A stretch of DNA of 41,887 bases, from NCBI GenBank assembly GCA_029261355.1, contig JAJDBM010000044.1, positions 1 to 41,887 of the forward strand, read 5' to 3'. The notes under the pieces were generated by a model, which ran no database searches, was not told the DNA's origin, and saw nothing but the letters and a program-made list of their open reading frames with translations. Below are positions 39,373-41,887 of the stretch, one piece after another (position 1 is the first letter of the stretch; each line of letters opens with the position of its first letter). The DNA comes from Nitrospirales bacterium. GTDB lineage: Bacteria > Nitrospirota > Nitrospiria > Nitrospirales > UBA8639. The translations under genes were made by a program, and so were the position numbers.

Positions 39373-40051
39373 AATGTGATTATCTCCTTAGTATGTTGAT
39401 TCAATCAATAATATGGACGCTAAAACGATTCCAGGCATGACAAAAATATAATCAAAATCTGTGCCATTTACGCGAATCCATCTAAAAGGCGCACAATTCC
39501 TCTAACAGCCAATTGAAAGCAGAACCCAATCACGTTTTAGATGCAACAAGGATGTGTGTCCAGGGAATGGAAGTTAGAGAAATCCGGTAGGAATGAAACA
39601 ACGATCAGAAGAAATACACCACGATGCTGAAAAAACTATGTAGATGATGACACGTATCAGATTAACTCGCGAAACACTCCTGGAACACTGTTGTGATATG
39701 AAAATATAAAAAACCCTCAATAATAGTAAAAATCGTCGACCGTTAGAAAAACGACGTGCCTAGGCTAAAAATATAGACACCAGCGAACGCATATACGGTA
39801 TACCTCTGCCTATAAATGTAGCACATGAAGTAAGACTCTTCAAGATAATCATGAAATGAAATCAGGACAAAAGCATGATCATTTAATGAGGAAAGATGAC
39901 AGAAAAAATACAATGCGTTCCAATAATTGCTTAATTTTCTAGGACTTCCCTCTCACGTCTCCTACCCCTCCAGATTCCCACCATTGCCTTTTAAGCGCCA
40001 ATCACTATACTGATTCGTACGTACGTGAATGCTAACAAGAGAGAGCCACGG
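39373..40051. other. AT-rich intergenic region
   Basis: A 679-bp stretch richer in A and T than its neighbours. It contains no convincing gene. A short segment near 39553-39576 (GTGTGTCCAGGGAATGGAAG) recalls the left-end tandem repeat in part. The downstream promoter lies at 39984-40011. It may mark the edge of an acquired block that carries the caspase-like gene. Confidence 0.45.
39984..40011 (+). promoter_or_regulatory. candidate sigma-70 promoter of the caspase-like gene
   Basis: TTGCCT (39984-39989), 16 bp, TATACT (40006-40011), about 40 bp before ATG 40052. The -10 is good. Confidence 0.45.
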
Positions 40052-41887
40052 ATGGGTGAATCTCGAAAACCAAAACTAGTATGCAGAATTGCGAGCATGC
40101 TCATTCTCTGCTCCTGCCTTTTGTCAGCAGGCATTGAGCAACCGCTCACGCATGCCTCCACCACACTCATTCCAGAAAACGCTGATGGCCCGCTCCTGAT
40201 TTGGAAAGAAAAAGCCAAGTACTATCTGGTAATTGCCGTGGATCAAACGGGGGTACCGGGAACCCAACTACCCTTTACGCTGACCGATGGCGAACGAGTC
40301 GCCACACAATTCGAGGCCCTAGGCTATCTCCCCTTAGTTGAAAAACAACTCATCGGCCCCACCGCCACCAGACTTAAAGTTAATGCCGCCTTGAAACGCA
40401 TCAGGGATCTCCCGGAGTGGGCCTCCGTCATCGTCTACTACAGCGGCCATGGCGTGGCCAGCCCACATGATAAAGATGTCTCTCTCCAATTGGCAGGGCA
40501 AGATGACCTGGATTATGGGTTAGGATACAAGGTCGCTGACCTCATTGAATCGGCCAAAGACGACACCTACCTGGGAGAGCTCCATCTCATCATCGATGCC
40601 TGCTTTAGCGGTAAGGGAGCCTTCACTGGTGCCTTGACCCTCAAAGAGCTTGGGCCCAAAACCACCATTTTAACCTCAAGTTCAACCACACAGACCTCTT
40701 TCCCTATCACCTTACAAGACGGGACACAGTTGAGCGCGTTTACGCAGGCCTTGCTAGAGGCCTTAGATTCAAACTGGTCTCAAGCCGATGACAACGGCGA
40801 TGGCATCCTTCGTTTTGACGAAGTCAAAACCTATGCCTTTAATCAACTCAGGAAATGGCATAGGCAAGACCGCATCGCAGAACCAATGCAGCCGCAGTTG
40901 GTCGGCGGTCATCATGAGGAAGTCATCCTCGCCTATCAAAGGAATAAAGTTGAACGATGGCATTCCAGCTCACGAGAAGCCCTGACTCTGGTCGCGCTGG
41001 AACGTAGTTTAATTCCAGCCATGCCGACACATGCTTCAGACACATCCGAAAAACCAGAAATTTCGCAAGAAGCTCAACTCCTGGCTCAACAACTCACGCC
41101 CAGCAGTGACGACCCTTATGCCCAAGGCATCAAAGCGCAAGCGGAAGGCCGCTTGCAAGACGCAAAAATACTATTTGCCGAAGCAGAAGCACTGGAAGAA
41201 GAATCGAAAGAACAGCTAGCCAAAATTTATTTAGCACGCGGACGCAATGAAACCTATGCCGGGAACTACAAAGATGCCTTACCCTGGTATCAAAAACGAG
41301 TAGCGCTGAAACCCACAAAAGACCCCACCCTACTGGATGAGTTCGGACAAGCTTGGGATCGGGCTGGGAAATATGAAGACGCCTTGCCCTTTTATGCTGA
41401 CGCGTTGAGTATTCGTGAGAAAACCTTGGACCCCAATGACCCAGACCTGGCATTGAGCCTCAACAACCTAGCGGGCTTGCACGAGTCGCAAGGGAAGTAC
41501 GCCGAGGCTGAGCCCCTCTACCAGCGCGCCATCCAAATAAGAAAAACTGCTTTAGGGAAAGACCATCCTGCCCTTGGTACCAGCTTCAATGATTTGGCAT
41601 ATCTCTACCAATCCCAAGGGAAGTACGCCGAGGCTGAACCATTATTCAAGCGCACATTGGAGATATATGAAAAGACGCTTGGATCAACTCACGCGTGGGT
41701 GGGAACAGCCCTCAACAACCTAGCGAGTTTGTATACGATGCAAGGAAAGTACGCCGAGGCCGAGCCCCTCTTCCAGCGCGCCATCCGAATCGATGAAGTG
41801 GCCTTAGGGCCCGAACATCCCTCGGTCGCTATTCGCCTCAACAACCTGGCGGATTTGTTTCGAACGCAAGGAAAGTACGCCGAGGCC
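40052..41887 (+). CDS. exported caspase-like protease with EF-hand loop and TPRs (3' end beyond window)
   Basis: Open from ATG 40052 to the window edge: 612 codons, no stop. A signal segment (MLILCSCLLSAG, near residues 16-27) suggests export. The C14 caspase domain (about 55-240) has its catalytic His 133 in YYSGHG and Cys 184 in IIDACFSG. Residues 246-257, DDNGDGILRFDE, are a complete 12-residue EF-hand loop (D-x-N-x-D-G-x-L-x-x-x-E), so calcium could control it. A linker leads into helical repeats, then from about residue 445 KLC-type TPRs of 42 residues with repeated GKYAEAEPL. GAGAG eight bases before ATG; an in-frame GTG exists at 40025. TPR number is not known because the gene is cut. 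Confidence 0.88.
   Translation, partial: MGESRKPKLVCRIASMLILCSCLLSAGIEQPLTHASTTLIPENADGPLLIWKEKAKYYLVIAVDQTGVPGTQLPFTLTDGERVATQFEALGYLPLVEKQLIGPTATRLKVNAALKRIRDLPEWASVIVYYSGHGVASPHDKDVSLQLAGQDDLDYGLGYKVADLIESAKDDTYLGELHLIIDACFSGKGAFTGALTLKELGPKTTILTSSSTTQTSFPITLQDGTQLSAFTQALLEALDSNWSQADDNGDGILRFDEVKTYAFNQLRKWHRQDRIAEPMQPQLVGGHHEEVILAYQRNKVERWHSSSREALTLVALERSLIPAMPTHASDTSEKPEISQEAQLLAQQLTPSSDDPYAQGIKAQAEGRLQDAKILFAEAEALEEESKEQLAKIYLARGRNETYAGNYKDALPWYQKRVALKPTKDPTLLDEFGQAWDRAGKYEDALPFYADALSIREKTLDPNDPDLALSLNNLAGLHESQGKYAEAEPLYQRAIQIRKTALGKDHPALGTSFNDLAYLYQSQGKYAEAEPLFKRTLEIYEKTLGSTHAWVGTALNNLASLYTMQGKYAEAEPLFQRAIRIDEVALGPEHPSVAIRLNNLADLFRTQGKYAEA

Follow-up and report, generated by a model that had tools for sequence, protein, structure and literature searches.

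The window analyzed here is the whole of contig C44 of a Nitrospirales genome, 41,887 nucleotides long, and its right edge cuts through a gene that had been described as encoding a secreted, possibly calcium-gated caspase. The question raised by this locus is what such a protease would act on and in which compartment. The reading frame lies on the forward strand, begins at 40025 (GTG) or 40052 (ATG), and reaches 41887 with no stop at the right end; the ATG at 40052 is the position that matches the starts of orthologues in the alignment. The gene is open because contig C44 ends there, and the initial annotation had rightly attributed the missing entry in its list of frames to a gene that leaves the window. 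At its right end (41767–41887, forward strand) the window shares 121 bp exactly with the start of contig C47, which belongs to the same genome; such an overlap is typical of an assembly graph that was broken within repeats. By this identity the caspase gene runs on to position 328 of C47, giving a protein of about 680 amino acids, of which the first 612 codons lie at 40052–41887 and the last 68 codons plus the stop at C47:122–328. The full gene could thus be obtained, and the same overlap leads to the genes downstream of it.

The first part of the protein carries a predicted Sec signal peptide at 40052–40156 (forward strand), with a hydrophobic core and a predicted cleavage site after THA and before Ser. 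Hydrophobic cores and cleavage sites of the AxA type are found in the aligned relatives as well, in agreement with the secretion signal initially proposed from the sequence. The caspase fold follows at 40184–40948 (forward strand; model residues ~10–264), where Pfam reports PF00656 at 30.7 bits against a cut-off of 21.4. The predicted model of this domain (m31ce83156c3a, pLDDT 89.9) gave VIA Z scores of about 20 to both MALT1 and metacaspase-4, while searches of the PDB with the single sequence of the domain returned noise or weak metacaspase matches only. Both catalytic residues claimed at the outset are in place, His133 in the motif YYSGHG (40448–40450, forward strand) and Cys184 in the motif IDACFSG (40601–40603, forward strand), and the dyad is invariant in all seven aligned genes. 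These features identify the product, at the level of sequence, as a caspase-like peptidase of family C14, an orthocaspase. The Asp located two residues before the catalytic Cys, taken together with a conserved Lys of the partner protein described below, suggested a preference for a basic residue at P1.

The C-terminal part consists of an array of KLC-type TPRs beginning at 41066 and running through 41887 onto contig C47 (forward strand), recognized as TPR_12 and TPR_10 and as helices in the model. The TPR_12 match has an E value of 2.6e-70 and the array is 46% identical to the KLC1 TPRs across 187–190 residues in a model-based comparison, so that the earlier assignment to the KLC type holds. 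The combination was previously thought to be unusual. However, prokaryotic metacaspases frequently carry TPRs and probable signal peptides (PMC3501461), and the p20 fold, His–Cys dyad, TPRs, and N-terminal export segment of the window protein are all shared with proteins described in the excerpted metacaspase and orthocaspase literature (PMC3501461, PMC6426788). Unlike the cassette described here, this architecture is not tied to a gasdermin in those excerpts.

A 12-residue loop of the EF-hand type, DDNGDGILRFDE, connects two helices within the caspase fold at residues 246–257 (40787–40822, forward strand). In the predicted model it occupies residues 211–222, with a helix at 207–210, a bridge at 217–219, and a helix at 220–236, that is, the helix–loop–helix arrangement of an EF-hand. 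Since the MALT1 caspase domain aligns across model residues 10–264, the loop is located inside the caspase fold, in its p10-like half, and the domain order of caspase, EF-hand, and TPR that had been read from the sequence does not apply, as the loop is not a separate domain. The description of the loop as "textbook" was also slightly too strong: the calcium-type ligands at positions 1, 3, 5, and 12 and the Gly at position 6 are present, but position 9 holds an Arg, replaced by His in the paralogue, and the strict PROSITE pattern PS00018 therefore fails. The domain search called for at the outset recovered PF00656 and TPR_12, but Pfam reported no EF-hand domain for the window gene. The pattern D-x-[DNS]-x-[DNS]-G-x-[ILVM]-x3-[DE] appeared in 24 of 20,000 shuffles of the caspase domain. 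Positions 1, 3, 5, 6, 8, and 12 are kept in 7/7 aligned genes, down to about 38% identity, and are also kept in a C-terminal piece of the copy from genome G395 and in both copies held out from the definition of the features; loss of the loop in orthologues, which would have spoken against a calcium function, was not seen in these genes.

The loop recurs at about the same distance after the catalytic Cys in caspases fused to FGE-sulfatase-like domains, in others with different N-terminal parts, and in several further caspase groups of the phylum, and it is absent from about half of the sampled caspases. Among caspases from plasmids of other phyla it was found in none of five, and three more were missed by the search motif. 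The calcium-type loop is thus a recurrent option of bacterial caspases, and the idea of an EF-hand domain peculiar to this architecture was dropped. EF-hand motifs have been reported in seven archaeal orthocaspases, the only proteins for which the excerpted surveys mention them, whereas the caspase here is bacterial (PMC6426788). Calcium loops of the type Dx[DN]xDG, which share the ligand spacing of the window loop, are biased to periplasmic or secreted proteins, a bias that fits the predicted export; the word caspase is absent from that paper, while here the loop joins two caspase-fold helices (PMC3123361).

The gene directly after the caspase gene provides a candidate for its target. It is located at C47:325–1242 (forward strand), encodes 305 amino acids, and starts inside the caspase stop codon in an ATGA overlap. 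No convincing Pfam match was obtained for this protein, which was at first taken to be an unknown lipoprotein; this view was dropped after a weak PDB profile match to gasdermins, followed by matches from PADLOC, NCBIfam, and Foldseek. The PADLOC model PDLC02986 for bacterial gasdermin (bGSDM) matched with E 4.2e-20 and recovered all eight members tested. The NCBIfam model NF051890 (prok_gasdermin) matched over its whole length with E 1.7e-14, likewise in 8/8 members, with a score of 54 bits that lies below the curated cut-off of 100 bits. Foldseek comparison of the predicted structure with the PDB gave gasdermins of bacterial, mammalian, and fungal origin as all of the top 28 matches, the best being 7n51 (E 6.6e-12), to which 236 residues were aligned with a VIA Z of 18.1 and an rmsd of 3.9. 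The pLDDT of this model is only 73.5, and below 50 in the linker. In profile–profile comparison with canonical bGSDMs, an E value of 1.8e-5 and an hhalign probability of 78% were obtained, with Cys aligned to Cys. Collectively, the sequence profiles and the predicted fold identify the partner as a bacterial gasdermin. Gasdermins are the pore-formers of fiery cell death. The proposal to look beyond the right edge for a target gene was therefore rewarded with an overlapping gene for a probable functional partner, although a gasdermin as the likely target had not been foreseen. Because their scores fall far short of the cut-off of the NCBI gasdermin model, proteins of this kind are easily missed.

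Ten near-complete gasdermin copies were found in eight Nitrospirales genomes of four genera and two families (G000, G021, G024, G038, G016, and G395 with one each, G022 and G441 with two each), and the close relatives named in the search are the Nitrospirales MAGs NPIRA01, NPIRA04, and OFTM76. The two G441 copies were found only once the features had been fixed from the remaining eight, and were treated as held out; both show the loop, signal peptide, lipobox, and Lys. A lipobox precedes the Cys, after a hydrophobic stretch, in all ten: LIGC, LVGC, LFGC, MVGC, MVAC, VMGC, LIAC, and LLGC among the eight copies found first, and LLGC and LASC in the held-out pair. The Cys is followed by Asn or Asp and then by Pro. 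A stricter test combining lipobox, hydrophobicity, and charge was passed by seven of the first eight copies and by 3 of 81 control reading frames. The bGSDM family habitually lacks an export signal, in contrast to the lipoprotein signal peptide in every near-complete copy here.

In the profile comparison the lipobox Cys is matched to the N-terminal Cys of cytosolic bGSDMs, and residue 2 of the mature gasdermin falls on residue 3 of 7n51 in the structure alignment, so that a canonical bGSDM starts where the signal peptide of these proteins ends. In known bGSDMs the N-terminal Cys is palmitoylated (PMC9612521, PMC12547243, PMC9079055). The partner has a Cys at the equivalent place, with lipidation predicted, and the lipoprotein pathway would supply the lipid. 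Leaving the founding paper (Johnson et al. 2022) aside, the literature searched makes no mention of export of bGSDMs. Four strong-scoring bGSDM genes in other Nitrospirota (L153, L154, L155, and L156) have no signal peptide, and the one in L155 follows a frame of 1422 amino acids with a P-loop-like N-terminus. Weak gasdermin-like proteins with export signals are encoded at L157:6210–7085, L158:5072–6439, and L159:4914–6284, with no adjacent caspase; one has a Sec signal and two have a lipobox and long C-terminal extensions.

At the other end of the gasdermin, a linker of very low model confidence is followed by a conserved tail, DDxYAAPLxxxFxAVTF, and the alignment of the model to 7n51 extends to residue 266 of the latter. 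The family trait of a short C-terminal tail after a cleavable linker is thus present, with an inhibitory role predicted for it. A Lys lies 22–33 residues from the C-terminus in 7/7 full-length copies and at about the same place in both held-out copies (9/9 intact tails); in this genome it is mature residue 248, about 28 residues from the end. In known bGSDMs the cut falls behind a Leu or Arg roughly 20 residues before the C-terminal end (PMC9612521), and by analogy these gasdermins are probably cleaved after the conserved Lys.

Every near-complete gasdermin directly follows a caspase-TPR gene on the same strand, the two genes overlapping or lying up to 91 nt apart; the G016 contig contains just the TPR tail of the caspase, and in G395 the gasdermin lacks its C-terminal end. 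Both genes show dN/dS of about 0.1–0.2 and are under purifying selection. The window caspase shares 82% identity with its G024 counterpart, whereas the corresponding gasdermins share only 51%, and between G024 and the second copy of G022 the gasdermin dS is 0.28 against a caspase dS of 1.55. These discordant histories (L008, L027, L028, L029, and L030) suggest an exchange of partners, and caspase and gasdermin are therefore not a strictly co-evolving pair. In genome contigs, within the limited reach of the search patterns, relatives of the gasdermin were found in Nitrospirales only; none were found in plasmids or viral contigs, and a search of plasmids for canonical bGSDMs gave no match.

Collectively, these results make it quite probable that the window gene encodes the protease of a bacterial gasdermin system working outside the cytoplasm. 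We know of no bacterial gasdermin that works there, and the export signals on both partners, together with the use of the Cys position as a lipoprotein anchor, are what appears new from the sequences. In the proposed mechanism, the caspase-TPR protein would reach the periplasm by Sec export, while the gasdermin would be exported as a lipoprotein, with the N-terminal Cys tethering it to a membrane on the periplasmic leaflet. The inner membrane would be the likelier site, given the Asn or Asp at position +2, which favors inner-membrane retention under the E. coli rule. The C-terminal tail would hold the gasdermin inactive until the TPR array meets a trigger or partner, upon which the caspase would cut the linker, probably after Lys248 (mature numbering), and the freed core would oligomerize into pores and kill the cell. 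The calcium loop may brace the p10-like half of the caspase and would favor activity only after export, since the cytosol contains little calcium and the outside much. Extracytoplasmic calcium usually suffices to keep a loop of this kind occupied, and a structural or export-linked lock is therefore at least as likely as a calcium gate. Somewhat less firmly, we favor the fuller view that the locus is a complete pyroptosis-like periplasmic module, in which a gasdermin anchored by its lipobox Cys, which takes the place of the palmitoylated Cys of cytosolic bGSDMs, is opened by an exported calcium-loop caspase that senses envelope events through its TPRs.

Some of the sequences could also be read as an ordinary cytosolic bGSDM, with unused hydrophobic N-termini, translation from near the Cys, and S-palmitoylation of this Cys in the cytosol. 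Canonical bGSDMs of the phylum start with MC, and in L027, L028, and L031, out of the first eight genes, an in-frame ATG 2–6 codons before the Cys might yield a leaderless product. However, L008, L044, and L043 lack an ATG within 20 codons of the Cys; the closest alternative starts are GTG or TTG in L008 and L043, and L044 has none. In every copy the upstream stretch is an open, hydrophobic frame that leads into a lipobox, the ATG of L008 shares bases with the caspase stop in the manner of translationally coupled genes, and the protease itself has a predicted export signal, which together render a cytosolic system unlikely.

The conserved loop and TPRs would equally suit a calcium-gated periplasmic protease that acts on various partners and merely has an unrelated gasdermin for a neighbor, and G015 contains a caspase-TPR relative with no adjacent gasdermin, in a region partly masked by N-runs. 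Such independence is very unlikely in view of the same-strand, overlapping or closely spaced genes, the presence of the caspase ahead of each near-complete gasdermin in four genera and two families, and the known occurrence of caspases beside bGSDMs (PMC9612521, PMC9079055). It is also improbable that the gasdermin, exposed at the surface or released, targets other cells (predators, competitors, vesicles), with the caspase as its processing enzyme. Both proteins have export signals and the swapping of partners among loci is reminiscent of conflict systems, but genes for secretion or surface display were not recognized next to the locus, and the +2 residues point to inner-membrane retention, under a rule that may not hold in this phylum.

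Compared to the bGSDM–caspase systems of Runella, Bradyrhizobium, Vitiosangium, and Lysobacter (Johnson et al. 2022, as described in PMC9612521, PMC9079055, and PMC12547243), the periplasmic system proposed here shares the gasdermin fold, the short C-terminal tail, the Cys at the start of the fold, and the adjacent caspase-like protease. It differs in the export signals on both proteins, in a Cys that belongs to a lipobox behind a signal peptide of 20–30 residues, in a likely P1 of Lys instead of Leu or Arg, and in a caspase with a calcium loop and KLC-type TPRs. These features suggest that these Nitrospirales, relatives of nitrite oxidizers, operate a gasdermin-based death switch beyond the cytoplasm. 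If so, bacterial gasdermin killing could be both triggered and executed there, with direct sensing of phage adsorption, envelope damage, or predators as a possibility. A reason for the lipid on the Cys, namely a tether near the membrane, would then be at hand, together with a natural test of this idea.

Several further observations were made at these loci. In the genome of the window, a second, complete caspase-loop-TPR gene lies at C47:1264–3210 (forward strand; L008), 21 nt after the gasdermin gene, so that two proteases flank one gasdermin; its caspase domain is 54% identical to that of the window protein. The G395 caspase (L043:7190–9301) has an in-frame stop just before the calcium loop, and one G022 caspase, the second gene (L028:5538–7980), has a frameshift in the TPRs; these may be sequencing errors or decay. 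Gasdermin remnants are present in G238 and G455, the former (L045:7851–8102) being a piece of 83 amino acids beside a transposase-like gene. Downstream of the cassette, a nucleotidyltransferase-like frame with a weak AbiEii match (E 0.003) is located at C47:5382–5933 (L008).
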